DNA from: an uncultured Hymenobacter sp.
Lineage (GTDB): Bacteria > Bacteroidota > Bacteroidia > Cytophagales > Hymenobacteraceae
Assembly (NCBI GenBank): GCA_913778455.1
Contig: CAJYVK010000332.1
Coordinates: forward strand, 1-37,037
DNA: 37,037 nt
Reading direction: 5' to 3'
Shown here: piece by piece, positions 2,417-22,122 of the stretch
Layout of the letters: every line of letters starts with the position of its first letter
How positions within the stretch are numbered: position 1 is the first letter of the stretch
Made by a program: the position numbers and the translations under genes
The notes under the pieces: generated by a model
Database searches by the model: none
What the model was told of the DNA's origin: nothing
What the model saw: the letters and a program-made list of their open reading frames with translations, nothing else

Positions 2417-3426
2417 TCAATTGCTTTCCCGATGCGACGCCAACGAATTTTATGCATTACATCAGCATACGGGTCTAGTGAAAACCAGACGAAAGCAGCT
2501 TTACCCACGAGCTGATTTTCCGGTACGAATCCCCAGAACCGGGAATCTTCGGAGTTGTGGCGATTGTCGCCCAGCACAAAGTAGTAGTTCTGCTTGATCG
2601 TGTATTGCGTGAGCGGCCGGCCGTTTTGCTGAATCATCCCGTCGCGCCACGTGATGCCTGAGTTACGCTCGAACTGCGCCACGATTTTATAATAAATGGT
2701 AGCATTAAGCGGCGACAGGTTGACGACCTGCCCTTTTTTGGGCACCACGAGCGGCCCAAAATTATCGAGCTGCCAGTGCCGGGGCACGGCACTGCGCACC
2801 CCCGAAATCCGAAAATCAGCCTGATCCGGGAAGAGCGAGCCAGCGGGTACGCGGCCACCGGCCACCGTGAGTGCCCGCGTATAGGGTTGGCGGCGCAGAT
2901 AGGCGGCCGTCGTATCGGGGCAGCTGATGAGGTAGCCCAGGGTACCCGTTTCCGGATTGGTACTTACTGCCGGAACGCCCCCCGGCTCCGTATTGTCAAC
3001 TATTCCGTGCGCCCGCAGCGCCGCCTGCACCTCGTCGCCCGGAGCCGCTACCTCGAGAAAATAGGTCGTCTGGAGCTGCCCCCTATTAGGTGCCGGCCGC
3101 CCGTTGAGCAACACCTGCCCTTGGCGGATTACTAGCGTATCACCGCCCACGGCCACGCAGCGCTTGACGAGGTGCGTGCGCCGCCCGGCGGCGCGCAGCG
3201 GCTCGTAGGGAGCGTAGAAAGCCAATACGTCGTTGCGTTGTACCCTTGCATCACCTGTAGGCAATGAACTGATAAACACATAGTCACCTACTAGCAGCGA
3301 GCGCTCCATACTTTCGGAGGGTATCACGTAGGCTGGTAGCAGCCATCGGCTGAAGAGTACCGCCACGAAAAGAAGCAGGAGTCCACCGCGCCAGCCAGCC
3401 AGTGCCCGCCTAAGTTTTAAAAGCAA
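2413..3426 (-). CDS. lepB: Signal peptidase I
   Basis: A 337-residue type I signal peptidase that removes signal peptides at the outer face of the inner membrane. One N-terminal membrane segment (about 15-33) is followed by the Ser box PSESMERSLLVGDYVF with catalytic Ser39. The Lys box LVKRCVAVGGDTL gives catalytic Lys88, and the C-terminal GDNRHNSEDSRFWGFVP box is intact. A long insertion lies between the Lys box and GDNR, as in Bacteroidota enzymes of this size. The first ATG codon in frame lies after the catalytic Ser, so translation must begin at TTG (3426) or another non-ATG codon close by. The 3' end overlaps the helicase remnant by a few bases. It is divergent from the TPR gene. Confidence 0.9.
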   Translation of the reverse strand: MLLKLRRALAGWRGGLLLLFVAVLFSRWLLPAYVIPSESMERSLLVGDYVFISSLPTGDARVQRNDVLAFYAPYEPLRAAGRRTHLVKRCVAVGGDTLVIRQGQVLLNGRPAPNRGQLQTTYFLEVAAPGDEVQAALRAHGIVDNTEPGGVPAVSTNPETGTLGYLISCPDTTAAYLRRQPYTRALTVAGGRVPAGSLFPDQADFRISGVRSAVPRHWQLDNFGPLVVPKKGQVVNLSPLNATIYYKIVAQFERNSGITWRDGMIQQNGRPLTQYTIKQNYYFVLGDNRHNSEDSRFWGFVPENQLVGKAAFVWFSLDPYADVMHKIRWRRIGKAIE

Positions 3427-3767: not shown

Positions 3768-5099
3768 ATGCAGAAGAAACTTTACGCTAGCTTGTTAGTT
3801 GCTTTTGGCCTGGCCGTAGCCGCCATTGTGTTCTTCAAGCACCCCGGTCCGCCCGCCCTGCCCGAACCCAAAGACCGCATTGGCCGGCTGGCCCTGGGCG
3901 GCGAGTGGGTGAATACCAAAGCCGCCATGGAAGGCTTGCTAGCCAAGCTGCGCACCGATCCCAACGACCAAAAGAGCCGCCTACTGCTGGCCGAAGCCTA
4001 CATGCAGGAAGGCCGCATTACCGGTAATCACCCCTACTACGATGCCGCCGCCATGCAGCTGCTGCAAGAAGTACTCAAGGCCGATCCCGAAAGCTTCGAG
4101 GCGCTGTGCTGCCAGGCCTCGCTGAGCCTCACGCAGCATCACTTCTCGCAGGGCCTGGCGCTGGCCGAGCAGGCCCAGGCAATCAACCCCAATAGCGGCT
4201 ACGTCTATGGCCTGCTAACTGATGCCAACGTGGAGTTGGGTCACTACGACCAAGCCGTGAAGATGGCTGATAAGATGAACCAGGTGCGCCCCGACCTCAC
4301 GGCCTACGCCCGGGTAAGCTACCTGCGCGAGATTCACGGCGACGTGCCGGGCGCCATCGAGGCGATGGACATGGCCGTGAAAGCCGGCTTTGCGGGCCTT
4401 GAGCAAACCGAGTGGAGCCGCGTGGCCCTGGGCCACCTGTACGAAGTAAGCGGGCGCCTCGACCAGGCGGCCGGCTACTACCAGCAGGCGCTGGCGCTGC
4501 GCCCCAACTACGCCTACGCGCTGGCTGGCCTGGCCCGCGTGGCCGCGGCCCACCAAGATTACGCTACGGCCATTACCAACTTAAACCTGGCCCGCGCGAC
4601 GGTGAAGGATTACGCCTTCACCGACGAGCTGGTGGATATCTACCGCCTGAATAAGCAGCCCGCCGAAGCCGCCAAAATGGCGCAGGAATCGGTCGCCATG
4701 CTGGCCGACGCCGCCCAGCAAGCCAATGATAACGAAGAGCTAGGCCATTACACCGACCGCGAGCTGGCCTACGCCTACCTCAAGACTGGCAACCTAGACA
4801 AAGCCCTGGAGCACGCCAAAATCGAGTACGCCCGCCGCCCCGATAACATCGACGTCAACGAAACGCTGGCCTGGGTTCACTACAAGCGCGGCGAGTATGC
4901 CGAGGCGCAGAAATACATGCAGGTGGCCCGCCGCACCAACTCCCAAAACCCGGTGCTGCTGTGCCGCGCTGGCCTCATCCTCAGCAAGGCCGGCCGGGCG
5001 GCCGAGGGCCGCGCCCTCATCGAGAAAGCCGTGAAAGTCGCGCCCTACCTCAACCCTGAGGTGACGGTCGAGAGCGAAAACCTGCTGGCCGCCCGGTAG
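3768..5099 (+). CDS. Membrane-anchored tetratricopeptide repeat protein
   Basis: A 443-residue protein with an N-terminal membrane segment or signal peptide (residues 4-23, LYASLLVAFGLAVAAIVFF) and TPR units over most of the rest. Clear TPR-like helices include ALCCQASLSLTQHHFSQGLA, GHYDQAVKMADKMNQVRPD, GRLDQAAGYYQQALALRPN, YAYLKTGNLDKALEHAKIEY and VHYKRGEYAEAQKYMQVARR. TPR arrays act as protein-binding scaffolds, and this one should face the periplasm. It ends 113 bases before the preferred HupE start on the same strand, so they may be cotranscribed, with a palindromic repeat between. It leads the run that continues to the TonB receptor and DUF4331 genes. No catalytic domain is visible and its partner is unknown. 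Confidence 0.85.
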   Translation: MQKKLYASLLVAFGLAVAAIVFFKHPGPPALPEPKDRIGRLALGGEWVNTKAAMEGLLAKLRTDPNDQKSRLLLAEAYMQEGRITGNHPYYDAAAMQLLQEVLKADPESFEALCCQASLSLTQHHFSQGLALAEQAQAINPNSGYVYGLLTDANVELGHYDQAVKMADKMNQVRPDLTAYARVSYLREIHGDVPGAIEAMDMAVKAGFAGLEQTEWSRVALGHLYEVSGRLDQAAGYYQQALALRPNYAYALAGLARVAAAHQDYATAITNLNLARATVKDYAFTDELVDIYRLNKQPAEAAKMAQESVAMLADAAQQANDNEELGHYTDRELAYAYLKTGNLDKALEHAKIEYARRPDNIDVNETLAWVHYKRGEYAEAQKYMQVARRTNSQNPVLLCRAGLILSKAGRAAEGRALIEKAVKVAPYLNPEVTVESENLLAAR

Positions 5100-5130
5100 A
5101 AATTCGGTAAGCAACAATGAAAACGGTTGT

Positions 5131-5215
5131 CATGCTGAACGCAGTGAAACCTCTTGGTTGGTCTTATGGAGCGGTGCAGACGAAGCGGCCAAGATGCTTC
5201 ACTGCGTTCAGCATG
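5131..5215. repeat. Palindromic repeat overlapping the HupE start
   Basis: CATGCTGAACGCAGTGAA at 5131-5148 is matched by its exact reverse complement TTCACTGCGTTCAGCATG at 5198-5215, with a 49-base spacer. The right arm resembles the repeat at the left edge of the window. The last ATG of the right arm is in frame with the HupE-type gene and is its most plausible start codon. Confidence 0.85.
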
Positions 5216-5887
5216 CCAGGCTATCGCAAGCCTCAGCTGGTGGCAGCGGGTGGGTTAATCGCTCTACTACTACTTACCCTGCCCGCCGCTGCCCACGTCA
5301 TCGATGCGGACTTGAGCAAGCTCTCGCGCACCGAGATTTTCTGGACGTACATCAAGCTCGGCTTCACCCATATTTTGCCGCTGGGCTTCGACCACATCCT
5401 GTTCATTGTCAGCCTCTACATCCTGGAGCCGCGGCTGAAGCCGGTGCTGTGGCAGGCCACGGCCTTCACGGTGGCCCACTCCATTACGCTGGGGCTGGCG
5501 ATGTACGGGGTTATCCGACCGCCGGGCAGCGTGGTCGAACCGATTATTGCGCTGTCCATTCTGTTTGTCGCGCTCGAAAACATCATTACAACTACGCTCA
5601 GCCCGTGGCGCCTGGCCATCGTATTTGGGTTCGGGCTGATTCACGGCATGGGTTTCGCCAGCGCGCTCACCGGGCTGGGCCTGCCGCAGAAAGACTACGT
5701 TGGCTCGCTTATTTCCTTTAATGTGGGGGTTGAGCTAGGGCAGGTTTCTATCATTTTGCTATGCTGGGCGCTCGTGGGGCGCTGGGCCGCCGGCCGGCCC
5801 TGGTACCGGGCGCGGGTCGTGGTGCCAGTGTCGGTAGTGGTGGGCCTGATAGCCGCCTGCTGGACGGTAGAGCGCCTGCTGGCGTAG
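5213..5887 (+). CDS. HupE/UreJ-type integral membrane protein
   Basis: A 224-residue inner-membrane protein of the HupE/UreJ_2 group, which includes suspected nickel or cobalt permeases. From the ATG at 5213 it has a leader ending at LLLLTLPAAAH and about six more hydrophobic segments. FTHILPLGFDHILFIVSLYI carries the family's histidine signature (compare HPxxGxDH in HupE). FTVAHSITLGLA and FGFGLIHGMGFASAL add further conserved His residues within membrane segments. An in-frame ATG at 5117 would add 32 residues, but that extension is encoded almost wholly by a palindromic repeat, so I reject it. It is followed after 58 bases by a small Cys/His protein and then a TonB receptor, which fits a role in metal handling. 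Substrate not shown. Confidence 0.8.
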   Translation: MPGYRKPQLVAAGGLIALLLLTLPAAAHVIDADLSKLSRTEIFWTYIKLGFTHILPLGFDHILFIVSLYILEPRLKPVLWQATAFTVAHSITLGLAMYGVIRPPGSVVEPIIALSILFVALENIITTTLSPWRLAIVFGFGLIHGMGFASALTGLGLPQKDYVGSLISFNVGVELGQVSIILLCWALVGRWAAGRPWYRARVVVPVSVVVGLIAACWTVERLLA

Positions 5888-5945
5888 TCAGCTATGCTCG
5901 CCTGGCTCCTTTACTCATAAAAAAACCAGCCTATTCCTCTACACC

Positions 5946-6341
5946 ATGCTGCGCTCACTACTCACTTGGCTTTTGCTACTCAACTACCTACTGGTAGTGG
6001 GGGCGGGCCTGGTCGTGAGCCGGCCCCCCGAGCCGACCTTTTCGGCCGCGCACCCCTACGTACATAGCCACGACTGCCAGCAGCATAACTACCTGCGCCT
6101 CGACTGCTTCGAGCGTTGCAACGGTGACCAGCGCACCGTGCACCGGCGGCTACCCACCGGTACCGGCCTGCACTACCTGGCCCAGCTGAAGGGGCTCGAC
6201 GTGCATTTTGCCGCCGCGCCCGTGGCCGCCCTGGTGCCGCCGCTGGCTTGGGCCAGCCTGGCCCAACACTCCGCGCCGGCTCCGGTGGCGTGGTCCTCCT
6301 GGGTCGGCCTCAGCGACTACCCGCCACCCCAACACGGCTAA
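5946..6341 (+). CDS. Small exported Cys/His-containing protein
   Basis: A 131-residue protein with an N-terminal hydrophobic segment (residues 5-24, LLTWLLLLNYLLVVGAGLVV). The following 50 residues contain HSHDC (HxHxC) and DCFERCNGD (CxxxC). The rest is Ala/Pro-rich and less ordered. Small exported proteins of this kind are often found just upstream of TonB receptors in Bacteroidota, some with metal-type Cys/His motifs, but I cannot name a family. It lies between the HupE-type gene and the receptor and is read in the same direction. Metal binding is inferred only from the motifs and neighbours. Confidence 0.65.
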   Translation: MLRSLLTWLLLLNYLLVVGAGLVVSRPPEPTFSAAHPYVHSHDCQQHNYLRLDCFERCNGDQRTVHRRLPTGTGLHYLAQLKGLDVHFAAAPVAALVPPLAWASLAQHSAPAPVAWSSWVGLSDYPPPQHG

Positions 6342-6483
6342 AGCTATCCGCCCCAGCGTCCGCCCGGTCGCTGGCTGGCCCAGCGTGCCCCAGCCAAGCG
6401 CTGCGCGCCGGGCCATTGTGGTTGAAGCTGACGCCAGTAGCGCGCCCGGACGGGTGCGGGCTGGGCGTTGTTAGAACGCTGGT

Positions 6484-8802
6484 ATGCACCTTACTAAATT
6501 ACTAATAAATAAAACTTTGTGGAGTATGCTCGGGCTGGGGCTGTTGGCCGCGCCGGTGGCCCTGGCCCAGCGCCCGGCCGCGCTACGCGGCACCGTGGCC
6601 GATTCGCTATCGGGCCAGCCACTGGCGGGTGTACGGGTGGTGGTGCTAGGGCAGCCGGGTGGCACGGCTACCGACGCGCTGGGCCAATTCCGGCTGGCAG
6701 GGCTGGCGGCCGGCACCTACCGGGTGCAGCTGGGGGCGCTGGGGTACCGACTCAAAACCAGCGAGGTAACGCTGGCGGCCGGCGAAACGCGGAGCCTCAC
6801 GGCCGCGCTCGCTACTACTAGCCTCGACCTGGCCGAAGTAACCGTGAGCCAGCCCCGCGACCCTAATCAAACGCTGGCCGCCATCTCGCACATCGACCAG
6901 ACGCTGCGGCCCATCAACTCGGCCCAGGACCTGCTGCGGCTGGTACCGGGCCTGTTTATTGCGCAGCACGCGGGCGGGGGCAAGGCCGAGCAGATCTTCG
7001 TGCGCGGCTTCGACGCCGACCACGGCACCGACTTCGCGGTGAGCATCGACGGGCTACCGGTGAATATGGTGAGCCACGCCCACGGCCAGGGCTACGCCGA
7101 CTTTCACTTCGTCATCCCTGAGACGGTGGAGCAGCTGCGGGTGTACAAAGGCCCCTATACCGCGCGCTTCGGCGACTTTGCCACCGCTGGCGCGGGCGAG
7201 TTCACCACCAAAACCAGCCTCGACCGCAGCCAGGTAAAGCTTGAAGTAGGCCGCTTCGATACGCGCCGGGCGCTGGTACTGCTCGATTTACTGGGCTCGC
7301 ACCACTTGTTTAGCAAAAAGCCGGAGAGCGCCTACGTGGCCGCCGAGTACAACTTCACGAACTCCTATTTCGACGCGCCGCAGCACTTCAAGCGCTTCAA
7401 CGGCCTTTTCAAATACACCGGCCAGCTCACCGACCGCACCTCGCTGACGCTACTGGGCTCGCACTTCACCTCCAGCTGGGATGCCAGCGGCCAGATACCC
7501 GACCGCGCGGTAAACGAAGGAATCATCTCGCGCTTCGGCAGCCTCGATCCCAGCGAAGGGGGCAGCACCAACCGCACCAACGCCTCGGTGGTGCTGACTA
7601 CGGCGCTGCCCCAAGCGGCGGTGCTGCGCCAGCAGGCGTACTACTCGCGCTACAACTTCAGCTTGTTCTCGAATTTTACGTTCTTCAAGAACGACCCGGT
7701 GAACGGCGACGAAATCGACCAGACCGACCACCGTAACCTCTACGGCTACACCGCCACCTACGACCGCGACGACCGCCTGGGTCACGGCGGCCGCACCCTG
7801 CACACGGTAGTGGGCCTGGGCACCCGCCTCGACGATTCCGAATTGGGGCTGCGGCACGCCGTGCAGCGGCGCATCCTGGATACCGTGAGCACGGGCCGGC
7901 TTTATGAGCAGAATATCAACGCTTACCTCGACGAAACGCTGGAGCTGACCGAGCGCCTGACCGTAAACGCGGCCGTGCGTGCCGACTTGTTCATCTTCCA
8001 GTTTCGGGGCCAGAAAGCCGACTCGGCGACCGGGTTTGTGCCCCTCACGGGGCGCGTGGCGCGGGGCCGGGTTTCGCCCAAGCTCAACCTTTACTATCAA
8101 CTTTCGCCGGCGGTGCAGCTATTCGTGCGCTCGGGCCTGGGCTTTCACTCCAACGATGCGCGGGGTGTGGTGCAGGGCACCGGCCACTTCAACGCGCTCC
8201 CCCGCGCCGTGGGCGCCGAAGTGGGCAGCACCTTCAAACCCGTGCCTAGCCTGGTGATAAACGCCGCCCTCTGGACCCTGCACCTGCAAGACGAGCTGGT
8301 ATACTCGGGCGACGAGGGTACTACCGAAAGTGCCGGCCCCACCCGCCGCTACGGCGTCGATGTGTCGGCCCGCTACCAGCTTACCGGCCGGCTCTTCCTC
8401 GATGCCGACGTCAACTACAGCCACGGGCGGCTCGTGGGTATGCCGGCCGGTGAAAATTATATCCCACTGGCCCCGAGCTTTACCAGCATCGGCGGGCTCA
8501 CGCTCAGAAATCCTAACGGACTGAGCGCCAGCTTACGCTACCGCCACATCGACAGTCGCCCAGCGCAGGAAGACAATGCCATTCGGGCGCGGGGCTATTT
8601 CCTGCTCGATGCCGTGGTCAATTATACCCGGCCACGCTTCCAGCTAGCGGCCACGGCCGAAAACCTGGCCAACGTAGCCTGGAACGAGGCTCAGTTTGCC
8701 ACCGATAGCCAGCTCCGCGGCGAGGTCTCTTCGGTCAATGAGCTGAATTTTACGCCCGGTACGCCGTTTTTTATCAAGGTTAACGCCAGCGTTTTTTTCT
8801 AG
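6484..8802 (+). CDS. TonB-dependent outer-membrane receptor with His-rich plug
   Basis: A 772-residue receptor that should import a ligand across the outer membrane using TonB energy. It has a signal peptide (to about residue 28, PVALAQ) and a CarboxypepD_reg-like domain (about 33-112: LRGTVADSLSGQPLAGVRVV). The plug spans about 125-235, followed by a beta-barrel ending in Phe (KVNASVFF). The plug contains IFVRGFDADHGTDFAVSIDG and VNMVSHAHGQGYADFHFVIP, placing His180, His198, His200 and His208 close together. That is unlike a SusC and suggests a metal or metal-complex ligand. It is much shorter than the SusC at 22123, has no SusD partner, and follows the HupE-type gene. A strong terminator comes 23 bases downstream. 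Ligand unknown. Confidence 0.88.
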   Translation: MHLTKLLINKTLWSMLGLGLLAAPVALAQRPAALRGTVADSLSGQPLAGVRVVVLGQPGGTATDALGQFRLAGLAAGTYRVQLGALGYRLKTSEVTLAAGETRSLTAALATTSLDLAEVTVSQPRDPNQTLAAISHIDQTLRPINSAQDLLRLVPGLFIAQHAGGGKAEQIFVRGFDADHGTDFAVSIDGLPVNMVSHAHGQGYADFHFVIPETVEQLRVYKGPYTARFGDFATAGAGEFTTKTSLDRSQVKLEVGRFDTRRALVLLDLLGSHHLFSKKPESAYVAAEYNFTNSYFDAPQHFKRFNGLFKYTGQLTDRTSLTLLGSHFTSSWDASGQIPDRAVNEGIISRFGSLDPSEGGSTNRTNASVVLTTALPQAAVLRQQAYYSRYNFSLFSNFTFFKNDPVNGDEIDQTDHRNLYGYTATYDRDDRLGHGGRTLHTVVGLGTRLDDSELGLRHAVQRRILDTVSTGRLYEQNINAYLDETLELTERLTVNAAVRADLFIFQFRGQKADSATGFVPLTGRVARGRVSPKLNLYYQLSPAVQLFVRSGLGFHSNDARGVVQGTGHFNALPRAVGAEVGSTFKPVPSLVINAALWTLHLQDELVYSGDEGTTESAGPTRRYGVDVSARYQLTGRLFLDADVNYSHGRLVGMPAGENYIPLAPSFTSIGGLTLRNPNGLSASLRYRHIDSRPAQEDNAIRARGYFLLDAVVNYTRPRFQLAATAENLANVAWNEAQFATDSQLRGEVSSVNELNFTPGTPFFIKVNASVFF

Positions 8803-8825
8803 CGCGCACTGCTTGCCTCCCGACT

Positions 8826-8867
8826 GGCCCGTTCGGGTGTGAACTGTAGTTCGCACCCGAACGGGCC
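8826..8867 (+). terminator. Intrinsic terminator after the TonB receptor
   Basis: A 20-base stem (GGCCCGTTCGGGTGTGAACT at 8826-8845 against 8848-8867) with one wobble pair and a two-base loop, followed by TTCTGCTTTT. It lies 23 bases past the receptor stop and probably ends the TPR-HupE-receptor transcript. Confidence 0.85.
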
Positions 8868-9406
8868 TTCTGCTTTTGAGGCCGGGGTAAAACCTGTGCA
8901 ACGACAAAATCGGTGCGTTTGATAACTAGCTAACGAACCCTCTTTATTAAATACGTGCAACTTATCTCAGCTCAATTCTGAAGGAATCCAGGTGAAATTA
9001 GCGGCAACTTACGTCGGGCTAAAATTTTTTGAAAAAAGTTCCTTTTCAGAAGTCCGACTTCAACTTAATCCCGTATGTGGCACCAGGTGAGAAAGTAGAT
9101 GCAGTAATAAGCTGAGCATTATACCTTCTCACTAATCAGCAACTTGAATCAAGTCTAGGCGCAGGCTAGCACGCGCAGCCAGTGCAGTTACCAGCTTAGG
9201 CTGGGTGGTACCCATTTGGGCAAATTACTTACTTCCCGCTTCTCTAATCCGACTACCATAAGCGCCTAAAATCCCCATAGCTCCCATTTGAGCTTTGGGA
9301 TTGCCGGGGCTTGGGATTATCTAATTGTTTCCTTGTGCGGCTTCGGCGGTGCGAGGCAGCATTGCTTGTTGCGTTCCCTACCCTTTTTCACCCTTTCACT
9401 TTCTCC
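8868..9406. other. Intergenic region before the DUF4331 pair
   Basis: About 540 bases between the receptor terminator and the first DUF4331 start. Apart from the receptor remnant at 9046-9135 I see no gene. It is more AT-rich than its surroundings between about 8930 and 9140. The promoter for the DUF4331 pair should lie in its right half, but I found no convincing consensus. Confidence 0.5.
9046..9135 (-). pseudogene. C-terminal remnant of an outer-membrane barrel protein
   Basis: On the - strand the last 29 codons before a TGA at 9046 read LVRRYNAQLITASTFSPG followed by ATYGIKLKSDF. This is a typical C-terminal end of a TonB-dependent barrel protein, finishing on Phe. The next codon upstream is a stop and nothing recognisable continues. 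It appears to be the last trace of a deleted receptor gene on the opposite strand. The match is short, so it is a reasonable but not firm call. Confidence 0.5.
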
Positions 9407-11200
9407 ATGAACAGATTTACCAGACCTCTTCAATGGGCGGTCGGGGCATGTGCAATTACGGCGCTCGCTACCTGGGGCACCGTGCAGTACACGCCGCTGG
9501 AAGCCAGCAGCCACCGCGAGGCTCCGCTGATTGCCGACGACCCGCTGGCCGACAACACGGACGTGTACGCCTTCAAGGATCCTAATAATTCGGAGCGAAT
9601 TATCTTGATCGCCAACTACATCCCGTTTCAGCTGGCGCAGGGCGGGCCGAACTACTACACGTTCGGCGAGAATATCCGCTACGAGATTCACGTCAAGAAC
9701 AACGCTTCGACCACGGGTGATGACATCGTGTACCGCTTCACCTTCACGCGGACCAATGGTGACCCCACCACGTTTTTTAACGCGCGGCTGGGGCAGCAAA
9801 ACCTGAAAACTACCTACACCTGCGAGAAAATCGTGGCGGGTGGCACGCCGGTTACCATCGTCAGCAATGGCGTGGTGCCGGCGTATAACATTGGGCCGCG
9901 CTCGATAAATACGGGCGTGGGCCTGGCGCAGGCCTCGTACACGGCCTACCGGCAGGGTGCCGTGACGGCGGCCAGCGGCGGCGGCGGCGAGCAGGTATTC
10001 TGCGGCTCGGCCGACGACCCCTTCTACGTGGATCTGGGGGCCATCTTCGACCTGGCCGGCCTGCGGGCCAACCGGGGGGCCCGCGATGGCCTGGCCAAAT
10101 ACAACGTGCATTCGATCGCCCTGAGCATCCCGGTATCCACGCTGCAAAAGAACAGCCAGCCGGCCTCGGCGGCGGCTAACATCCTGGATGGCAACTACGT
10201 GATTGGGGTGTGGGCCTCGGCCAGCCGCCCCGCCATGCGGACGCTGAACGGCGGTACCACGGGCACTACCAGCACGTCGGGCAACTACACCCAGGTGTCG
10301 CGCCTGGGCATGCCGCTGCTCAACGAGGCCATCAACCCCGTCGGGGCCAAGGATGCCTGGAACCGCACCACGCCTTACAACGAGGCGGCCGTTACCGACG
10401 ACTACCTCTCGAACCCGGAGCTGGGCCTGTACATGGCGGACAATACTCCCATGAACGGCGCGGCCCCCAAGCCCAGCGGCCAAACCTACTACGGCGAGGC
10501 GGTGCCGGCCCTGAGCGCGTTGCGCATTCAAACGAAGTCGCTGGGTTCTTTTGACTTCCGCAACGGGGCGGCCGGCCTGTCGGGCCTGACCAGCGCCCAG
10601 CGGCAGGGGACGGTCTTTGCCGACCCCACGTTTGGCCCCTACCTGCTCGTAGCGGGCAAGCCGCGCTCGGTGGATATCAAGCCAATTTTCCACACCGGTG
10701 TGCCCAACCTGCCGCCGTACCAGCTGGCAACGGGTAAGAATGGCAACCCGCTGGCGGCGGGCAAGCCGTTCATCAACAACTTCTTGCCGGTACTGGGCGA
10801 CATGCTGCGCCTGAACATGGCCGTGCCGGCTACCCCGCGCAATTCGCCCGACTTTAGCAACCAGGGGCTGCTGGCCGCGGCCGTGTTGGGCATTACCGAC
10901 TCGCGCTACAACGGCAGCACGGCGCTGCAAAACATCCCCAACATGGACGGCTTCCCCAACGGCCGCCGGCTGGAGGATGAGGTAGTGAAGATTGAGTTAC
11001 AGGCGGTGAGTGGGGCCGTGCTGGCCGCCATCGGCCTGTGGTACGACGACTACACGCCGGGCACCTCGCCCACCCCCGCTACCTCGCAGCTGAAGGGCGT
11101 GCTGAATTTCACGGCGGGCGTCGAGAAAAACGACACCACGCTCAGCGCCTCCTTCCCCTACGTGCAAACGCCGTGGCAGGGCATGCGCGTGCGTCGCTAA
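9407..11200 (+). CDS. DUF4331 protein, short form
   Basis: A 597-residue exported DUF4331 protein of unknown function. I choose the ATG at 9407: it gives a membrane leader (PLQWAVGACAITALATWGTV), while the upstream extension depends on TTG at 9311 and encodes an unlikely peptide. The hallmark EASSHREAPLIADDP with NTDVYAFKDP follows the leader directly. Later motifs include GGPNYYTFGENIRYEIHVKN, SVDIKPIFHTGVPNLPPYQL and NMDGFPNGRRLEDEVVKIEL. The protein stops just after the domain (TPWQGMRVRR) with no sorting signal, so it is probably periplasmic or anchored by its leader. It is nearly colinear with the next gene, 33 bases downstream, so the two are a tandem duplication and probably one operon. 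Confidence 0.88.
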   Translation: MNRFTRPLQWAVGACAITALATWGTVQYTPLEASSHREAPLIADDPLADNTDVYAFKDPNNSERIILIANYIPFQLAQGGPNYYTFGENIRYEIHVKNNASTTGDDIVYRFTFTRTNGDPTTFFNARLGQQNLKTTYTCEKIVAGGTPVTIVSNGVVPAYNIGPRSINTGVGLAQASYTAYRQGAVTAASGGGGEQVFCGSADDPFYVDLGAIFDLAGLRANRGARDGLAKYNVHSIALSIPVSTLQKNSQPASAAANILDGNYVIGVWASASRPAMRTLNGGTTGTTSTSGNYTQVSRLGMPLLNEAINPVGAKDAWNRTTPYNEAAVTDDYLSNPELGLYMADNTPMNGAAPKPSGQTYYGEAVPALSALRIQTKSLGSFDFRNGAAGLSGLTSAQRQGTVFADPTFGPYLLVAGKPRSVDIKPIFHTGVPNLPPYQLATGKNGNPLAAGKPFINNFLPVLGDMLRLNMAVPATPRNSPDFSNQGLLAAAVLGITDSRYNGSTALQNIPNMDGFPNGRRLEDEVVKIELQAVSGAVLAAIGLWYDDYTPGTSPTPATSQLKGVLNFTAGVEKNDTTLSASFPYVQTPWQGMRVRR

Positions 11201-11233
11201 CTCATTCTCTCACCTTGCTATCGCCTATTTAAA

Positions 11234-14200
11234 ATGACTACTAAACAGTTACGCACCTACGTCGCGCTGCCTACGCTCGCGATGGCGGTAGTCGGCGGCG
11301 CCCTCTGGAGCCAGCTGCGCTACACGCCCCTGGAGGCTTCCTCGCACCGCGAGGCCCCGCTGATTGCCGACGACCCAGTGGCCGACAACACCGACCTCTA
11401 CGCCTTCAAAGACCCCAATGACGCCGGCAAGATCATCATCATTGCCAACTACATTCCGTTTGAGCTGCCGCAGGGCGGTCCCAACTACTCGACGTTTGGG
11501 GAGAACGTGCGCTACGAGATCCACGTCAAAAACAACACCGCCACCACCGGCGACGACGTGACGTACCGCTTCACCTTCACGCGGACGAACCAGGACCCGA
11601 GCACGTTTTTCAACGTCCGGCTGGGGCAGCAAAACCTGAAAACCACCTACACCTGCGAGAAAATCCTGGCCGGCGGCTCGCCGGTGGCCATTATCACCAA
11701 CGGTGAGGTGCCGGTCAACAACATCGGGCCGCGCTCCATCAATGGGGCGGCGGGGCTGAACTCGGGTACTTCCTACACCGACCGCCGCCTGAACGCCATT
11801 ACGCTGGCCTCGACGGGCGAGCGCGTGTTGTGCGGGCCGTCGGACGACCCGTTCTTTGCCGACCTGGGGGCCATTTTTGACCTTGCCAACATCCGCGGCG
11901 CTTCGGGCGGGGCGGGCACACCCACCGATGGGCTCGCGCGCAAAAACTGCCACAGCATCGCGCTCAGCATTCCGGTTGAAAACCTGCAAAAGACCGGGAA
12001 GAACATCAGTCAGGCGGCCAACATCCTGGACCCCGACTACGTGATCGGCGTATGGGCCTCGGCCAGCCGCCCGGCCATGCGCACCTTGAGCAGCACCGCC
12101 GACCCCACCAACAGCGGTGGCTGGGTGCAGGTGTCGCGCTTGGGCATGCCGCTCACCAACGAGGTGATTAACCCCATCGGGGCCAAAGATGCCTGGAACG
12201 CCCGCACCCCCTACAACGAGGCAGCCATCACCGACAGCTACCTCTCGAACCCGGAGCTGGGCCTGTACATGGCGGACGATACCCCCGTAAACGGCGCGGC
12301 TCCTAAGCCCGCCGGCCAGACCTACTACGGCGAGGCAATTCCGAACATCTCGAAGCTGCGCATCCAAACCAAGTCGCTGGCCGGGCGGCCGGGCTTCGGC
12401 AACGGCTTTGACTTCCGTAACGGCGCGGCGGGCCTGAGCGCCCTGTACAGCAACGCCGCTGGCGCCAACGCGGGCACGGCCTTCGCCCCGGCCCCGGCGG
12501 GCTTTGGCGAGTACCTGCTGAACCGCGGCCAATCCGGTAGCCCGCGCTCGGTGGACATCAAGCCGATCTTCCACACCGGCGTACCCAACCTGATTCCGTA
12601 CCAGCTGGCGACCGGTAAAGGCGGCAACCCGCTGGCGGCGGGCAAGCCGTTTATCAACAACTTCCTGCCCGTCATCGGCGACATGCTGCGCCTGAACATG
12701 GCCGTGCCGGCCACCCCGCGCACCTCGGCCGATTTCAGCAATCAGGGGCTGCTGGCCGCCGCCGCGCTGGGCCTGACTGATGGGCGCTACAATACCAACG
12801 CTAACCTGCAATTCATTCCCAACATGGATGGCTTCCCCAACGGCCGCCGCCTGGAGGATGCCGTGGACCAGATTGAGCTGAAGGCCGTGAGCGGCGTGGT
12901 ACTGGCCGCCATCGGCCTGTGGTACGACGACTTTACCGCTACTGCCACCAACCCCGTTACGCCGCAGCTTGGCAACGTGCTGGGCTTCACCACGGGCGTG
13001 GAAGCCAACGACACGACTATCCGGGCTGAGTTTCCGTTCGTGCAAACGCCCTGGGTAGGCACCGGCTCGGCCAGCGGTCCGACCAATACCGTCGTGATTC
13101 CCGACCTGACGATCAGCACGACCATGAACGTAGAGTCGGGCACGTATAACAATATCACCATCACCAGCACCGGCGTGGCTTCGTTCAACGGCCCCGTCGT
13201 GGTGAATGGCGCGCTGACCGTGCAAACCGGCGGCGTGATGAGCACGCGCGGTGTATTGGCTACCAACTGCCTTCCCATCACGGGCTCGGGCAGCTTTACG
13301 CTGCAAGCCGGGGCTACCCTGCGCATCTGCGACAGCAACGGCATCGCGGCCACGGGTACGGCTTCGGGGGCCATTCAGCTCACGGGCTCGCGCACGTACT
13401 CCAACGATGCGACGTACGAATACATTGGCGGCGAGGCCCAAACCAGCGGCACGGGCCTACCCAGCCGGGTGCGTAGCCTGACGGTGAACAACGCGGCTGG
13501 CCTCACCCTGAACAACGGCGGCGTAGGCGTAAGCCAGCTAGTAACCCTGACCAACGGCAACCTGATTAGCAGCGCCAACCAGCTGCTGACGCTCCTCTCG
13601 ACGCCCACCTCCGGCACGGCCCTCGTCGTGAATACCAACGGTGCCGTGACCGGCCCCGCCACCATGCAGCGCGCCATCGACCCCGCCTTCAACTCCGGCG
13701 CGGGCTACCGTCACTACAGCTCGCCAGTAGCCAGCACCACGCTCAGCGATCTGGGTAGCAACACCCCGAGCTTCAGCCCGATATTCAACCAGGCTTACAA
13801 CACGTCTCCCACGCCGAGTACAGTTACGCCCTTTCCCAACGTGTTTGCCTACGACCAGAGCCGCGTGACGATGGGGGCCAACACCTCGGCTGCCTTCGAC
13901 ATGGGCTTTGTGGTGCCGCAGGCCAGCGACGTGATGACGGTGCTCAGTGGCTACACCGTGAACATCCCGGCCAGCGCGGTAGTAGACCTTTCGGGTACCT
14001 TCAACAACGGGACTATCACGCGCAACGGCCTGGCGCGTGGCAGCCAGCCCCAGAGCGGCTGGCAGCTGCTCGGTAACCCCTACCCCTCGCCGCTCGACTT
14101 CAGCATAGTGTCCGGCATCACGCGCACCAACCTCGACGACGCGGTGTACGTGTACCAAAGCACCGGCCAGTACACCGGCCAGTACCGCAGCTACGTCAAC

Positions 14201-15061
14201 GGCTTCGGCAACCCGGTGGTAGCCGCCATGCAGGGCTTCTTTATGCGGGTGACGACCCCCGGCACCAGCAATGGCAGCCTGGCCCTGACCAACGCCGCCC
14301 GCGTCACGACGTTCAGCACTACGCCGAGCTTCAACCGTACCACTGCCGACCCGCGCCCCCAGGTAACGCTGAGCCTGCAAGGCAACTCGTTGCAGTTCGG
14401 GGATGAAACGTCGGTGTACTTCGAGCAGGGTGCGCTGGCGGGCTTCGACTCCCACTACGATGCCTACAAGCTACCCAACTCGTCGGGCATGAACATCAGC
14501 AGCTACATCACCGGCGGCGAGCTGTCCATCAACGGCCTCGCACCGCTGAATCCGACCGTTGCCACTACCGTACCACTCAACGTGCACGTGCCCGCCAACG
14601 GCACCTACACCCTGAATGCCGCCAAATTGGCCAACTTCACCAGCGCCACCACGGTGCTGCTGCTCGATGCCGAAACGGGCGCCCGGATCAACTTGGCGCA
14701 GCAGCCGCTGTATAGCTTCACGGCCGCCGCTACGGCGCTGCCGGGCCGCTTCAGCCTGTATTTCGGCCCGGCCGCCGCGCTGGCCGTGAACAATGCTGCG
14801 CTGGCCCAGCAGGTACAACTCTTCCCCAACCCCGCTCGGGGCAGCTTTACGGTAGTGGTACCCACTGAGCTCGGCAAGGGCACTGTGACGGCCACGCTCT
14901 ACAACCAACTCGGCCAAGCCGTGGCGCAGCGCAAGCTCGCCATGACCGCCGCCGGCGCGACCTCGCAATTCGACGTAACCGGCCTGGCGCTGGGGGTTTA
15001 CACCTTGCAGCTATCGGGCAGCGATGCCCGAGTAACCAAGCGCCTAGTCGTTGAGCAATAA
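11234..15061 (+). CDS. DUF4331 protein fused to a T9SS-sorted surface tail
   Basis: A 1275-residue protein. Residues 1 to about 610 repeat the DUF4331 protein before it (leader, EASSHREAPLIADDP, SVDIKPIFHTGVPNLIPYQL, NMDGFPNGRRLEDAVDQIEL). About 615-1190 is a Thr/Ser/Asn/Gly-rich region typical of Bacteroidota surface proteins: GTYNNITITSTG, LTVNNAAGLTLNNGGVGVSQ, GYRHYSSPVASTTLSDLG and GWQLLGNPYPSPLDF. About 1194-1275 is a type A T9SS sorting domain (LFPNPARGSFTV, LGVYTLQLSG, KRLVVEQ). It should be carried across the outer membrane by T9SS and displayed or released. A terminator follows at once. The biochemical role of DUF4331 is not known to me. Confidence 0.88.
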   Translation: MTTKQLRTYVALPTLAMAVVGGALWSQLRYTPLEASSHREAPLIADDPVADNTDLYAFKDPNDAGKIIIIANYIPFELPQGGPNYSTFGENVRYEIHVKNNTATTGDDVTYRFTFTRTNQDPSTFFNVRLGQQNLKTTYTCEKILAGGSPVAIITNGEVPVNNIGPRSINGAAGLNSGTSYTDRRLNAITLASTGERVLCGPSDDPFFADLGAIFDLANIRGASGGAGTPTDGLARKNCHSIALSIPVENLQKTGKNISQAANILDPDYVIGVWASASRPAMRTLSSTADPTNSGGWVQVSRLGMPLTNEVINPIGAKDAWNARTPYNEAAITDSYLSNPELGLYMADDTPVNGAAPKPAGQTYYGEAIPNISKLRIQTKSLAGRPGFGNGFDFRNGAAGLSALYSNAAGANAGTAFAPAPAGFGEYLLNRGQSGSPRSVDIKPIFHTGVPNLIPYQLATGKGGNPLAAGKPFINNFLPVIGDMLRLNMAVPATPRTSADFSNQGLLAAAALGLTDGRYNTNANLQFIPNMDGFPNGRRLEDAVDQIELKAVSGVVLAAIGLWYDDFTATATNPVTPQLGNVLGFTTGVEANDTTIRAEFPFVQTPWVGTGSASGPTNTVVIPDLTISTTMNVESGTYNNITITSTGVASFNGPVVVNGALTVQTGGVMSTRGVLATNCLPITGSGSFTLQAGATLRICDSNGIAATGTASGAIQLTGSRTYSNDATYEYIGGEAQTSGTGLPSRVRSLTVNNAAGLTLNNGGVGVSQLVTLTNGNLISSANQLLTLLSTPTSGTALVVNTNGAVTGPATMQRAIDPAFNSGAGYRHYSSPVASTTLSDLGSNTPSFSPIFNQAYNTSPTPSTVTPFPNVFAYDQSRVTMGANTSAAFDMGFVVPQASDVMTVLSGYTVNIPASAVVDLSGTFNNGTITRNGLARGSQPQSGWQLLGNPYPSPLDFSIVSGITRTNLDDAVYVYQSTGQYTGQYRSYVNGFGNPVVAAMQGFFMRVTTPGTSNGSLALTNAARVTTFSTTPSFNRTTADPRPQVTLSLQGNSLQFGDETSVYFEQGALAGFDSHYDAYKLPNSSGMNISSYITGGELSINGLAPLNPTVATTVPLNVHVPANGTYTLNAAKLANFTSATTVLLLDAETGARINLAQQPLYSFTAAATALPGRFSLYFGPAAALAVNNAALAQQVQLFPNPARGSFTVVVPTELGKGTVTATLYNQLGQAVAQRKLAMTAAGATSQFDVTGLALGVYTLQLSGSDARVTKRLVVEQ

Positions 15062-15067
15062 GTAGAA

Positions 15068-15109
15068 GGGCGCTGTGCCAGGTCGGTAGCATGACTTGGC
15101 GCAGCGCCC
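15068..15109 (+). terminator. Terminator after the DUF4331 operon
   Basis: GGGCGCTGTGCCAGGTC (15068-15084) pairs with GACTTGGCGCAGCGCCC (15093-15109) with two wobble positions and an eight-base loop, followed by CTCTCGTTTTC. It lies 6 bases past the stop of the long DUF4331 gene and separates it from the small protein gene. Confidence 0.8.
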
Positions 15110-15143
15110 CTCTCGTTTTCTACTTAATTTTTCGATTTTTCTC

Positions 15144-15365
15144 ATGAAAAAATATTCTTACCTGCCTTCTCTCGCCGGCGCACTAGTCGTTGGCCTGCTC
15201 GCCGCCGTGCCAGCAGTAGCGCAGCAGCCCAGCACGGGCGGCCCCACGCCGCAGCCGCAGGCCGACCCCACGGCCGTTCCCCTCGACGGGGGCGCCTCGT
15301 TGCTACTGGCTGGCGGCGTGGCCCTTGGCCTGAAAAAATTGCGTGACCGTCGCCGTACCAGTTAG
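15144..15365 (+). CDS. Small PID-CTERM-like protein
   Basis: A 73-residue protein with a signal peptide (MKKYSYLPSLAGALVVGLLA, then AVPAVAQQ), a short Pro/Gln linker, and a C-terminal VPLDGGASLLLAGGVALGLK followed by KLRDRRRTS. That end (P-x-D-G-G, one hydrophobic helix, basic tail) matches the PID-CTERM type of putative sorting signal found in Bacteroidota. The mature part is only about 20 residues, so the protein is almost nothing but sorting elements. I use the ATG at 15144; a TTG upstream would need to start inside a terminator hairpin. It is transcribed apart from the DUF4331 operon and followed by a strong terminator. Function unknown. Confidence 0.75.
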   Translation: MKKYSYLPSLAGALVVGLLAAVPAVAQQPSTGGPTPQPQADPTAVPLDGGASLLLAGGVALGLKKLRDRRRTS

Positions 15366-15391: not shown

Positions 15392-15432
15392 AGTCGCCTT
15401 AGGAAATAGAAGTTCTATTTCCTAAGGCGACT
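15392..15432. terminator. Perfect palindromic terminator between convergent genes
   Basis: AGTCGCCTTAGGAAATAGAA at 15392-15411 is followed after one base by its exact reverse complement at 15413-15432, then TTATTTGTTTATTT. It lies between the small PID-CTERM gene (+) and the GH92 gene (-) and could end transcription from either side. Confidence 0.85.
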
Positions 15433-15541: not shown

Positions 15542-17914
15542 CTACTGCGCCGAGGGCGGGGGCGTTTTCGTACCCCAGGCTTTGTTGGGCTGGGGTCCCA
15601 TCGTGAAGACCAGCCGGCCGCCGCGCATCAGCTCGTCGCGGTAGAGCCAGCAGTTGGCCAGCGGCTTGCCGTTGAGCTCGGCAGACTGCACGTACACGTT
15701 GGCCTTGGCCGTGTTTTTGGCTTCGATGATCAGCGTTTTTCCTTTGCCCAACTGGATGGTGGATTTGCTGAACAGCGGGCTGCCCAGCTCAATGATGGGG
15801 CGACTGTCGGTAAAGCCCTTCACGTCGAACAAGCCCAGCGCCGTGATGACGTACCACGAGCCCAGCTGGCCCTGGTCCTCATCCTGCCCGTAGCCGTAGC
15901 CGTGAATGGGCTCAGTGCCGTAAAACTCGTCGCAAATCTGGCGGGTCCACTTCTGGGTAAGCCAGGGCTGACCGGCGAAATTGAACAGCCAGCTGATGTG
16001 CAGGCAGGGCTGGTTGCCGTGGTTGTAGATAGCCTTGATGCCGGCAAAGGCGTCGATTTCCTTGCCGCCGCCGAAGCCCGTTTTGGCCGAGGCGGTAAAG
16101 AGGCTGTCGAGGCGATTGGTAAACTTGTCGCGCCCCAGCGCCGCGATGAGCCCGGCCGGGTTTTGGGGCACGTAGAAAGTGTACTGCATGGCGTTGCCCT
16201 CCTGGAAGCCGCGCCAGGGCTCGAAGGGGTTGAAATTGCCCACGAAGGTGCCATCAGCCAGCTTGGGCTGCATGAGCTGGGTCTGGGGGTTGAAGATGTT
16301 TTTCCAGCCGTCGGATAGCTTGCTGAACTGCTCGTAGTCGGCTTTTTTACCCAGGCTCTTCGCCATTTGAGCGGCGGCAAAGGCGCTGAAGCTGTACTCC
16401 AGCGTGTGCGAGTTGGCGAAGTACGAGCCGGTGGAATCGGTCTTGTACCACTCGCCCTGGTACTGCTTGTAGTCTTCACGGAAGGGTACGTAGCCGTGCT
16501 GCACGAAGGCCTGCACGTCGAGCTTACCGGCGCCCACCGGGCGGCGGCGACCGCTCAGCTCGTTGGCCCGCACAGCCTGGTAAGCCAGGTTAACGTCGTA
16601 GTTGCGGATGCCAATCTGGTAAGCCCCGGCCACGGCCAGCCCCACGAAGTTGGTGCCCACGCCCGACACAAACTCACCGTTGGCCAGGCCGTCGCCAAAC
16701 CAGCCCTTGTCGCGGTACACTTGCAGTTCGGTGTTCACGTAGTTGCCGTACCACTCGGGGTAGGCCAGCGCCCAGAGCTGGGTCAGGTTCCAGTAGCCAC
16801 CCCAGATGGCGTCGGTATTCATCAGCTCGGGGCGGGGGCCGGCGCTGGCGGCCGGCTGGCCTACCTGGCCGCCGTGCTTGGGGTAGGCCCCGTTCACATC
16901 GCTGATGATGCCGCGCCCCAGCAGGCCGTGAAACAGGCCGGTGTAGAACTTGGTCTTGTCCTGCTCGTCGGGGCCTTCCACCGCGATTTTGCTTAGCTCG
17001 CGCTGCCAGGTGGCCTGCGCGGCGGCGCGGGCCTGGTCGAAAGTAAGGCGGCTGGCCTCGGCCAGCAGGTTGGCCTTGGCGTTGGCTACGGAGGTGTAGG
17101 ACAAGCCGATTTTCAGCTCAATCTTCTCCTGCGCGGCGGTTTGATAATCCAGAAACAAGCCCGCGCCCTTGCCCGTGGCCGAGTTCTTTTTCGCCTGCAC
17201 GCCCGCCGCCGAAAACGCGCCCACGCTGGCCGGGGCCTTGCTGATTTCGCCGTAGAAGTACATGTTGACCTTGCCGGCGGGGTCGTAGATTTTCACGTAT
17301 TTGGGGTAAGTGCTCACGAAGCCCTCCACGTGCGTGGCGTCCACCATCCGAATGCTGGCGTCGGTGACTTCGCCGCTCTCGCCCTGCTTGTTGCCGATGT
17401 CGAGGATGAGGTGGGCGCGGTCGCTCTTGGGGAAGGTGTAGCGGTGAAAGCCCACGCGCTTGGTAGCCGTGAGCTCGGCCGTGATGCCGTAGTCGGCCAG
17501 CAGCACCTTGTAGTAGCCGGGCTCGGCTACCTGGTCTTTGCGGTCAAAACCCGAGCGGTAGCCGCTGGCCGGCTTGTCGAGGTCGCCGGGCTGGGTGCGC
17601 AGCTCACCGGTGGTGGGCATGAAGCTTACGCCCCCCACCTGCCACTCGTGGAAATGCACGAAGCCCTCGATGGAATTTTGGCGGGTGTCGTAGCCCACGG
17701 CTTCCCAGCCCGAGGCATTGCCGTAGTGGCCGTTGGTAGAAGGGGCTAGCTTGGCCATGCCGTAGGGCACGGCCGCCGGGGTGTAGAAAAACCACCGGCT
17801 GTGCGCCGTACCGATGTTGGGGTTGACGTACTTCAGCACGTTTTGCGCGCCGGCCGGGCCGGCCAGCAGCGCGAGGGCCAGCGGTAAGATACCCGCGGGG
17901 AAAGTCAATTTCAT
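15542..17914 (-). CDS. GH92 family exo-mannosidase-type enzyme (first copy)
   Basis: A 790-residue exported glycoside hydrolase of family 92, the Ca-dependent inverting enzymes that mostly remove terminal mannose from alpha-mannans. I start at the ATG at 17914, which gives the signal peptide LTFPAGILPLALALLAGPAG then AQ; 28 further codons are open upstream. Family features: VNPNIGTAHSRWFFYTPAAV near the N-terminus, NTDAIWGGYWNLTQLWALAY in the middle, GNQPCLHISWLFNFAGQPWL, and GQDEDQGQLGSWYVITALGL. In GNQP, Gln635 stands where known GH92 alpha-mannosidases have the catalytic-acid Glu (GNEP). The DED base region is kept. No lipobox, so probably periplasmic. Last gene of the operon, with a terminator just after it. 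Confidence 0.9.
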   Translation of the reverse strand: MKLTFPAGILPLALALLAGPAGAQNVLKYVNPNIGTAHSRWFFYTPAAVPYGMAKLAPSTNGHYGNASGWEAVGYDTRQNSIEGFVHFHEWQVGGVSFMPTTGELRTQPGDLDKPASGYRSGFDRKDQVAEPGYYKVLLADYGITAELTATKRVGFHRYTFPKSDRAHLILDIGNKQGESGEVTDASIRMVDATHVEGFVSTYPKYVKIYDPAGKVNMYFYGEISKAPASVGAFSAAGVQAKKNSATGKGAGLFLDYQTAAQEKIELKIGLSYTSVANAKANLLAEASRLTFDQARAAAQATWQRELSKIAVEGPDEQDKTKFYTGLFHGLLGRGIISDVNGAYPKHGGQVGQPAASAGPRPELMNTDAIWGGYWNLTQLWALAYPEWYGNYVNTELQVYRDKGWFGDGLANGEFVSGVGTNFVGLAVAGAYQIGIRNYDVNLAYQAVRANELSGRRRPVGAGKLDVQAFVQHGYVPFREDYKQYQGEWYKTDSTGSYFANSHTLEYSFSAFAAAQMAKSLGKKADYEQFSKLSDGWKNIFNPQTQLMQPKLADGTFVGNFNPFEPWRGFQEGNAMQYTFYVPQNPAGLIAALGRDKFTNRLDSLFTASAKTGFGGGKEIDAFAGIKAIYNHGNQPCLHISWLFNFAGQPWLTQKWTRQICDEFYGTEPIHGYGYGQDEDQGQLGSWYVITALGLFDVKGFTDSRPIIELGSPLFSKSTIQLGKGKTLIIEAKNTAKANVYVQSAELNGKPLANCWLYRDELMRGGRLVFTMGPQPNKAWGTKTPPPSAQ

Positions 17915-18032
17915 ATTATGATTTTTAAGAATAAGGGCCAGCAAAAAGCCCGCGCCCGGCCTCACCGACCCGACGCGGGCAGACCGGGCGCACCCCACCG
18001 CGCAGCCCGGTCATTACTGGTGCAACGCCTAT

Positions 18033-22096: not shown

Positions 22097-22122
22097 CTGA
22101 AGGGAAGGGTGGGATAGCGAGA

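Follow-up and report, generated by a model that had tools for sequence, protein, structure and literature searches.

A Hymenobacter locus with paired DUF4331 proteins: a candidate envelope system for nickel or copper uptake, with a predicted metal site at the mature N-terminus

The window analyzed here is a stretch of 37,037 nucleotides from an uncultured Hymenobacter sp. (assembly GCA_913778455.1, contig CAJYVK010000332.1, positions 1 to 37,037 of the forward strand). Seven genes of its + strand, between positions 3768 and 15365, code for a TPR protein, a HupE_UreJ_2 permease, a small exported Cys/His protein, a TonB-dependent receptor, two DUF4331 proteins (DUFa and DUFb) and a PID-CTERM protein. 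We conclude, with a probability of about 0.58, that this locus is an envelope system which captures and imports a divalent transition metal, Ni(II) being likelier than Cu(II). The likely metal site of the DUF4331 proteins is their mature N-terminus, where an amino-terminal Cu(II)- and Ni(II)-binding (ATCUN) motif is predicted. The N-terminal [Ser/Ala/Gly]-X-His of DUF4331 is a new finding of this work. An earlier note, made from the letters of the window, had proposed metal handling by a linked set of genes; this proposal is supported, its site is now sharpened to the DUF4331 N-terminus and kinship points to nickel first.

The mechanism proposed is the following: (i) DUF4331 proteins would be exported, the copy with a type IX secretion system (T9SS) tail being able, in Bacteroidota, to reach the surface, while its tail-less partner is probably periplasmic; (ii) the signal peptidase cut would leave NH2-Ser-Ser-His, i.e., an ATCUN tripeptide; (iii) Ni(II) or Cu(II) may be chelated by the free amine, two backbone amides and the imidazole of His3; (iv) the metal would then be handed to the TonB receptor, the conserved histidines of which may carry it across the outer membrane, in a transfer order that is putative; (v) the TPR and Cys/His proteins could hold or relay it in the periplasm; (vi) the HupE_UreJ_2 permease, with its predicted mature His1, would move it across the inner membrane, presumably inward. 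Protein metallophores such as hemophores also are secreted or surface proteins that pass a metal ligand to a TonB receptor. The likeness drawn here is one of proposed role; DUF4331 differs from them in that its ATCUN tripeptide is proposed to carry the divalent ion bare.

N-terminus of DUF4331 proteins

The N-domains of the window and of loci L032-L178 were tallied. They were chosen by a profile that itself includes the start, and the 187 domains are related sequences, not independent ones. [SAG]-x-His is found at the start of 186 of these 187 domains, the remaining one being truncated at a contig end. The tripeptides are SSH (157), ADH (21), SDH (3), SHH (2), SNH (2) and GDH (1). The preceding residue is Ala (171), Ser (7), Gly (2) or, in the forms without signal peptide, the initiator Met (6). 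Outside this tally, the short snippets L001-L031 contain 33 SSHREA starts, every one after Ala, with none missing. In the divergent clades residues 1, 2 and 4 vary, while His3 is retained and keeps its position relative to the processing site.

In the first set, SSHREAP directly follows the signal peptide in 112 intact open reading frames (ORFs), the preceding sequence being variable. The loose -1/-3 rule of signal peptidase fits 132 of 132 SSHREA starts at the SSH site, and at most 48 of the 132 at the other offsets from -8 to +8, except +2. Both the 112 ORFs and the 132 starts were preselected by a motif around SSHREA and thus constitute no test of the motif. Since Ala is found at -1 in 128 of the 132 starts, a cut before SSH is favoured. 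Moreover, Asp or Asn just before the cut is unsuited to signal peptidase, so that the ADH, SDH, GDH and SNH forms speak against a cut just before His, and His3 fits best. With a crude signal-peptide caller, which often chooses an earlier site, 62 of the 146 DUF4331 ORFs called have His at +3 vs. 8 of 402 other exported-like ORFs; so do 11 of 49 HupEs. According to the parts of PMC5811147 and PMC12509749 covered here, NH2-X-X-His is the ATCUN motif, whose Ni(II) and Cu(II) affinities vary with context. The two structural models of DUF4331 are uninformative about the metal site, because the predicted local distance difference test score (pLDDT) of residues 1-10 is below 50 in both.

Organization of the locus

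Open reading frames and family profiles confirm all seven + strand genes at the positions where the earlier note had placed them. The features are:

3768-5099, + strand: TPR protein (TPR families up to 81.9 bits; N-terminal membrane anchor by reading)
5117-5887, + strand: ORF of the HupE_UreJ_2 permease (PF13795, 160.8 bits for a cut-off of 24.5; likely start ATG 5213)
5294-5296, + strand: codon of the predicted mature His1 of HupE (His invariant in 45/45 aligned operon copies; it adjoins the cleavage site predicted by reading)
5946-6341, + strand: small exported Cys/His protein, with HSHDC and CFERC (HxHxC, CxxxC)
6484-8802, + strand: TonB-dependent receptor (plug with SHAHGQGYADFHF; CarboxypepD_reg-like N-terminus)
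8826-8867, + strand: terminator-like hairpin 3' of the receptor gene
9407-11200 (most likely), + strand: DUFa, DUF4331 protein without sorting tail (PF14224, 424 bits for a cut-off of 27)
9506-9514, + strand: SSH codons of DUFa, directly after the predicted cleavage PLEA↓SSHREAP
11234-15061, + strand: DUFb, DUF4331 protein with a long middle region and a T9SS type A sorting tail (PF14224, 388 bits for a cut-off of 27)
11339-11347, + strand: SSH codons of DUFb
15068-15109, + strand: terminator-like hairpin 3' of DUFb
15144-15365 (most likely), + strand: PID-CTERM protein (NF046080, 43.8 bits for a cut-off of 26)
15392-15432, + strand: terminator-like hairpin 3' of the PID-CTERM gene

The Por_Secre_tail of DUFb covers residues 1196-1273 (39.4-39.5 bits, cut-offs 23 and 27) and DUFa has no tail; the surface destination that the earlier note had assigned to one of the two DUF4331 proteins is thus supported. 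The TPR protein is a probable periplasmic scaffold. No Pfam or NCBIfam family exceeds its cut-off with the Cys/His protein, whose residues H40, C44, C54, C58 and H87 are invariant in 31 of 31 aligned sequences. The three hairpins have stems of 18-19 bp and are consensus matches only. Because they follow the receptor, DUFb and PID-CTERM genes, and because 604 bp separate the receptor gene from DUFa, the seven genes probably form two or three transcription units.

A homologue of type I signal peptidase (S26) is encoded at 2413-3426 of the window (- strand), divergently upstream of the TPR gene. In five loci from metagenome-assembled genomes (L064, L067, L075, L076 and L092) such a homologue is found immediately 5' of the first DUF4331 gene and on the same strand.

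Conservation of the neighbourhood in Bacteroidota

Named genome contigs were scanned with a profile from an alignment of eight DUF4331 domains, which led to 77 loci from the best 80 of 570 confirmed stretches; 40 further loci came from relatives and phylum samples, giving a total of 117. DUF4331 is present in 48 of the 395 phylum-sample genomes. Neighbours were counted in the 96 loci with enough flanking sequence on either side, which fall into three groups (61, 16 and 19 loci); the other 21 (16, 4 and 1 per group) were left out because the contig ended less than 5 kb away or there was no match. All the counted loci are titled or sampled as Bacteroidota, except L101, from a metagenome-assembled genome titled Williamsia.

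The earlier note had proposed, as a check, to count the co-occurrence of DUF4331 with HupE-type, TPR and receptor genes. Near DUF4331, a TPR gene is found in 85 of the 96 loci, a receptor of the same family in 66 and a HupE gene in 47. Besides, among 90 genomes of the same genus, at least two HupE_UreJ_2 genes are carried by 68 of the 69 with DUF4331 vs. 4 of the 21 without it. Co-occurrence is strong and above chance; the lack of enrichment which the earlier note had named as a refutation is not observed. The usual order on one strand, i.e., DUF4331 (one or two genes)-TPR-HupE-Cys/His-receptor, or the same with pieces missing, is observed in most sufficiently long loci, in Hymenobacter, Spirosoma, Larkinella, Dyadobacter, Fibrella, Rudanella, Flavobacterium, Taibaiella and others. 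Compared with this DUF4331-first order, that of the window is unusual.

It must be pointed out that 9 of the 61 named loci have no partner at all, and that 7 of these 9 are the DUFa-DUFb pair of Hymenobacter. This pair stands apart from the other partners in L034, L035, L037, L038, L042, L047 and L048, six of which have the PID gene; in the window, the DUFa-DUFb-PID cassette adjoins the remaining partners. The PID-CTERM gene is beside DUFb in L032, L034, L035, L037, L038, L046, L047 and L048. The comparison leads to the conclusions that: (i) DUF4331-TPR plus a permease, with the receptor in Bacteroidota, is a widespread core; (ii) PID-CTERM with DUFa and DUFb is a Hymenobacter cassette; (iii) the earlier view of a single system of seven genes holds for the conserved core, while the seven probably are not one unit in view of the hairpins and of the cassette. 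No paper mentioning DUF4331 or PF14224 was found in the literature searched, and the system, which is conserved, is in this sense undescribed, as the earlier note had suggested.

In a divergent clade (L145-L164) DUF4331 is split into a gene for an N-domain of 216-239 aa and, in the loci where it is observed, a gene for a C-domain of 175-250 aa, the latter reading as a lipoprotein. Of the 19 loci counted for this clade, 18 have a nearby TPR gene and 10 a nearby receptor of the same family; nine of these receptors score 954-1036 bits and the L154 copy reads as two ORFs. As for the full-length pairs scanned, the first copy has no T9SS tail in 4 of 4, and the second matches Por_Secre_tail in 2 of 4 (L064, 46.1 bits; L105, 26.8 bits, i.e., just under the cut-off of 27). 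L059 and L072 have longer second copies, yet these show no Por_Secre_tail match. These sequences give a hint of a division of labour between paired DUF4331 genes.

In the Adhaeribacter swui plasmid (L109, 6166-8429) the receptor beside DUF4331 is annotated as two adjoining ORFs; it may thus be broken or mis-sequenced in the record.

HupE permeases and DUF6702

By reading, the His1 of the window HupE is residue 60 and comes directly after the Ala at the predicted cut LPAAA↓HVID. In the listed copies with a signal peptide, Ala (once Gly) precedes this His; the copies of L127, L136 and L137 lack a signal peptide. The crude caller places His at +1 in 18 of 49 HupEs vs. 7 of 402 other exported-like ORFs.

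HupE/UreJ-2 «anglerases» were described in 2025 (PMC12537917). In the parts of that paper covered here, they resemble the window HupE by their PF13795-type permease and by a His1 directly after the signal peptide; the His1 domains on HupE/UreJ-2 bind Cu(II) at 62-74 nM and one of them binds Ni(II) at 220 nM. The same parts do not mention DUF4331. The window HupE differs from anglerases by its short stretch from His1 to the membrane: about 18 residues separate His1 (60) from the start of the PF13795 match (78), and the extracytoplasmic Ang domain, of about 175 residues, is lacking. The proteobacterial HupEs beside DUF4331 (L110-L112 and L117-L119) have, judging from length and reading, a long extracytoplasmic N-terminal region, as in anglerases.

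DUF6702 binds Ni(II) at 5.6 pM (PMC12537917, parts covered). The operons of L127 and L137 read DUF4331-TPR-DUF6702-HupE, with DUF6702 scores of 51.7 and 59.7 bits for a cut-off of 24 and spacings of 11-25 bp from its neighbours. With this narrow profile, DUF6702 is found in none of the others of the 117 loci.

TonB-dependent receptors

The best plasmid relatives of the window receptor beyond Bacteroidota are about 35% identical, identity going down to 29% among the matches listed (40 rows). Five of 50 matching records were opened. The receptor gene is close to: (i) an adjacent nikR and hyp genes in Afipia; (ii) nikR and HoxN, immediately 5', in Paraburkholderia; (iii) HoxN and a NiFe hydrogenase, within 8 kb, in Cupriavidus; (iv) HupE and DUF3500 genes in Hymenobacter sp. 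GOD-10R. The window receptor scores 308-326 bits with those of Afipia, Paraburkholderia and Cupriavidus, 337 bits with that of Indioceanicola and at most 121 bits with six other receptors (from the loci and the window). All nine receptors compared share H162, H180, H200 and H555.

The nikR/hoxN-linked receptors of the Afipia, Paraburkholderia and Cupriavidus plasmids share with the window receptor 32-34% identity over about 80% of the length, the four invariant His and the plug motif GQGY. They differ from it by their partners, which in the window are DUF4331 and TPR, in a genome without NikR. The copper receptor OprC and the metal-pseudopaline receptor CntO (PDB) also are TonB-dependent receptors for metals, as is proposed for the window receptor; they match the latter at 22-28 bits only, over the plug region.

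On the GOD-10R plasmid (L169, 3127-12654) the gene order is DUF3500-HupE-helix-turn-helix regulator-same receptor family-DUF3500-DUF3500, and the ends of the last two DUF3500 proteins read like T9SS tails. In this parallel cluster DUF3500 may thus take the part of DUF4331.

DUF4331 outside Bacteroidota

A plasmid collection was searched by tblastn. The 25 DUF4331 loci opened (L109-L124 and L170-L178; only L109 is from Bacteroidota), like the 5 receptor loci, were chosen non-randomly to spread taxa, from lists of 32, 50, 43 and 30 records. In 13 of these 25 loci a nickel/cobalt-type permease (HupE/UreJ, NicO or HoxN/NixA) lies inside the fetched flanks of DUF4331. It is of the HupE/UreJ type in L110, L111, L112, L117, L118 and L119 (annotation or own profile) and in L172 (PF13795), while Rhizobium leguminosarum L170 has HupE (PF04955). 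NicO is found in L115 and L171 and, under the curated cut-off, in L122. L121 has a nickel transporter by annotation, and R. bangladeshense L176 a protein annotated as HoxN/HupN/NixA, which Pfam assigns to NicO. No such permease is seen in L109, L113, L114, L116, L120, L123, L124, L173, L174, L175, L177 and L178; for L177 and L178, which are unannotated, this negative is based on one scanned TPR ORF each. The neighbourhood is partly conserved in Pseudomonadota, Actinomycetota and one cyanobacterial plasmid.

In four Rhodobacterales loci (L113, L116, L120 and L123) DUF4331 and a small lipoprotein-like gene adjoin type II secretion system (T2SS) genes; in two Streptomycetaceae loci a class F sortase gene adjoins DUF4331. 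Six DUF4331 proteins (L170, L173, L174, L176, L177 and L178) have no signal peptide and start with Met-[Ser/Ala]-x-His. Some are beside HupE, HoxN/NixA or TPR genes; L173 and L174 have no such annotated neighbour. By the rule of Met aminopeptidase, such an initiator Met would be removed.

We tentatively extend the reading to the whole family, with somewhat less than even confidence. DUF4331 would be a pan-bacterial family defined by an exposed N-terminal ATCUN motif, bared by signal peptidase in exported members and by Met aminopeptidase in cytosolic ones. The exported members would serve as protein nickelophores, displayed through whichever surface route the lineage uses (T9SS, a T2SS encoded nearby, or sortase); their partners would be a nickel receptor and nickel-type permeases from several families.

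In L112, a gene annotated as SMP-30/gluconolactonase (14334-14960), without Pfam match, reads as a C-terminal piece of the same TonB receptor family.

Nature of the metal and other readings

Several results weigh against the uptake of a metal as proposed, or against nickel as this metal. (i) The mature start of DUF4331 rests on a cleavage predicted by the -1/-3 rule: a cut two residues later, which puts His first, likewise fits the loose rule in 132 of 132 starts, and in the split clade the cleavages A↓ADH and AA↓DH are one residue apart. (ii) Residues 4-7 (REAP) are conserved too; the N-terminus may thus be kept for folding or docking. (iii) HupE has no nearby copy in 49 of the 96 loci, nor has the receptor in 30. 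(iv) A strong preference for Cu(II) is possible at ATCUN sites, according to the parts of PMC5811147 covered. (v) The Indioceanicola receptor relative has no metal gene nearby and, since two of the receptor records were picked as hydrogenase plasmids, the nickel link of the receptor is biased upward. (vi) Urease does not follow DUF4331: it occurs in 45 of 69 genomes with DUF4331 (one being a broken fragment) vs. 13 of 21 without it in the same genus (p = 0.80). In the phylum sample it occurs in 6 of 48 vs. 7 of 347 (p = 0.002), and this significance is lost once the genus is excluded (2 of 44 vs. 7 of 347, p = 0.27). (vii) A strong NiFe hydrogenase match is found, by reading, in just 3 of the 48 DUF4331 genomes (G100, G248 and G294). 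(viii) The genome of the window, 91% complete, has no NikR_C match, and no Rfam family reaches the gathering threshold in the window. (ix) As to the direction, the NicO of Streptomyces is similar to RcnA-type exporters.

Three further proposals lack support: that the system exists to provide urease or NiFe hydrogenase with nickel (no urease link, few hydrogenases), that NikR controls it (no match in the genome) and that a riboswitch does so (no Rfam family at its gathering threshold within the window).

The working model of the earlier note, i.e., that surface DUF4331 binds or releases a ligand which the receptor imports and the HupE-type protein moves inward, finds support for the route from receptor to permease, by co-occurrence. 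It is weakened by the loci without nearby HupE; the ligand, the affinity and the direction we infer. Nickel is favoured because of the kinship of receptor and permease, and because of DUF6702; copper is favoured because of the frequent preference of ATCUN sites and of the Cu(II) affinity of the Ang domains.

The best surviving alternative keeps the architecture and changes the metal: a surface DUF4331 binding Cu(II), with the receptor and the HupE-like protein feeding copper to aerobic respiration. It partly overlaps the uptake reading preferred here, and the odds do not sum to one. The tighter binding of Cu(II) than of Ni(II) by the His1 Ang domains on HupE/UreJ-2 (PMC12537917, parts covered) speaks for it, as do an ATCUN site that can favour Cu(II) and the lack of association of DUF4331 with urease or NiFe hydrogenase. 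We nevertheless consider it unlikely: the receptor relatives lie near nikR, hoxN and hyp genes, the permeases are of nickel/cobalt families and a Ni(II) binder, DUF6702, is part of two operons.

According to a second alternative, the system would sense, buffer or export surplus metal under envelope stress, DUF4331 sequestering it outside, the permease exporting it and an extracytoplasmic function (ECF) sigma factor with its anti-sigma factor exerting the control. Genes for ECF sigma factors and RskA-type anti-sigma factors are indeed near DUF4331 in Pseudoalteromonas (L110 and L124), in Croceicoccus (L172) and in several Bacteroidota loci (RskA_C by Pfam in L078, L110 and L160, the other anti-sigma calls being by annotation or reading), and the L115 NicO scores 106 bits with NF007454, a model for nickel/cobalt efflux whose cut-off is 195. 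No ECF or anti-sigma gene is seen between the genes of the window. TonB receptors are importers and one is near in 66 of the 96 loci, which makes this alternative improbable.

A comparably low probability is given to a surface role of DUF4331 unrelated to metals (adhesion, or the binding of glycans or lipids), the N-terminus serving for folding or docking. SSHREAP is conserved as a block, beyond His3 alone. The DUF4331 models look rich in Ig-like beta-sandwich, with low Z scores: VIA-align gives Z 8.4 to 7uww (root-mean-square deviation 4.9, 203 residues aligned), followed by Ig-like rows tied near Z 7. Foldseek gives no match at E <= 0.001, whether with the whole model or with residues 1-277, and the sequence search of solved structures with DUF4331 returns antibody chains alone (E >= 0.19). 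Against this, His3 and its place persist in divergent clades despite the changes at residues 1, 2 and 4, and nickel-type permeases recur as partners.

Chance neighbourhood, which the division of the window set by hairpins and the DUFa-DUFb pairs found apart elsewhere might suggest, is hardly tenable given neighbourhoods conserved across Bacteroidota and partly beyond, and is refuted for the core by the 96-locus count.

If the uptake reading is true, (i) DUF4331, a family without function and for which no literature was found, would gain a precise and cheap test on its first three residues; (ii) many environmental bacteria would have a surface capture step as a further part of their nickel or copper uptake; (iii) the joint travel of HupE-type permeases and of a TonB-receptor family with DUF4331 and TPR genes would be explained; (iv) a second class of proteins, beside those with N-terminal His1, could be found from the residues bared by signal peptide cleavage.

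Adjoining genes

In L067 the ECF gene is followed by a gene for a cupin protein. In the window, the system adjoins a SusCD-type polysaccharide locus (20486-25584 and 15542-17998), i.e., the mannan locus of the earlier note.

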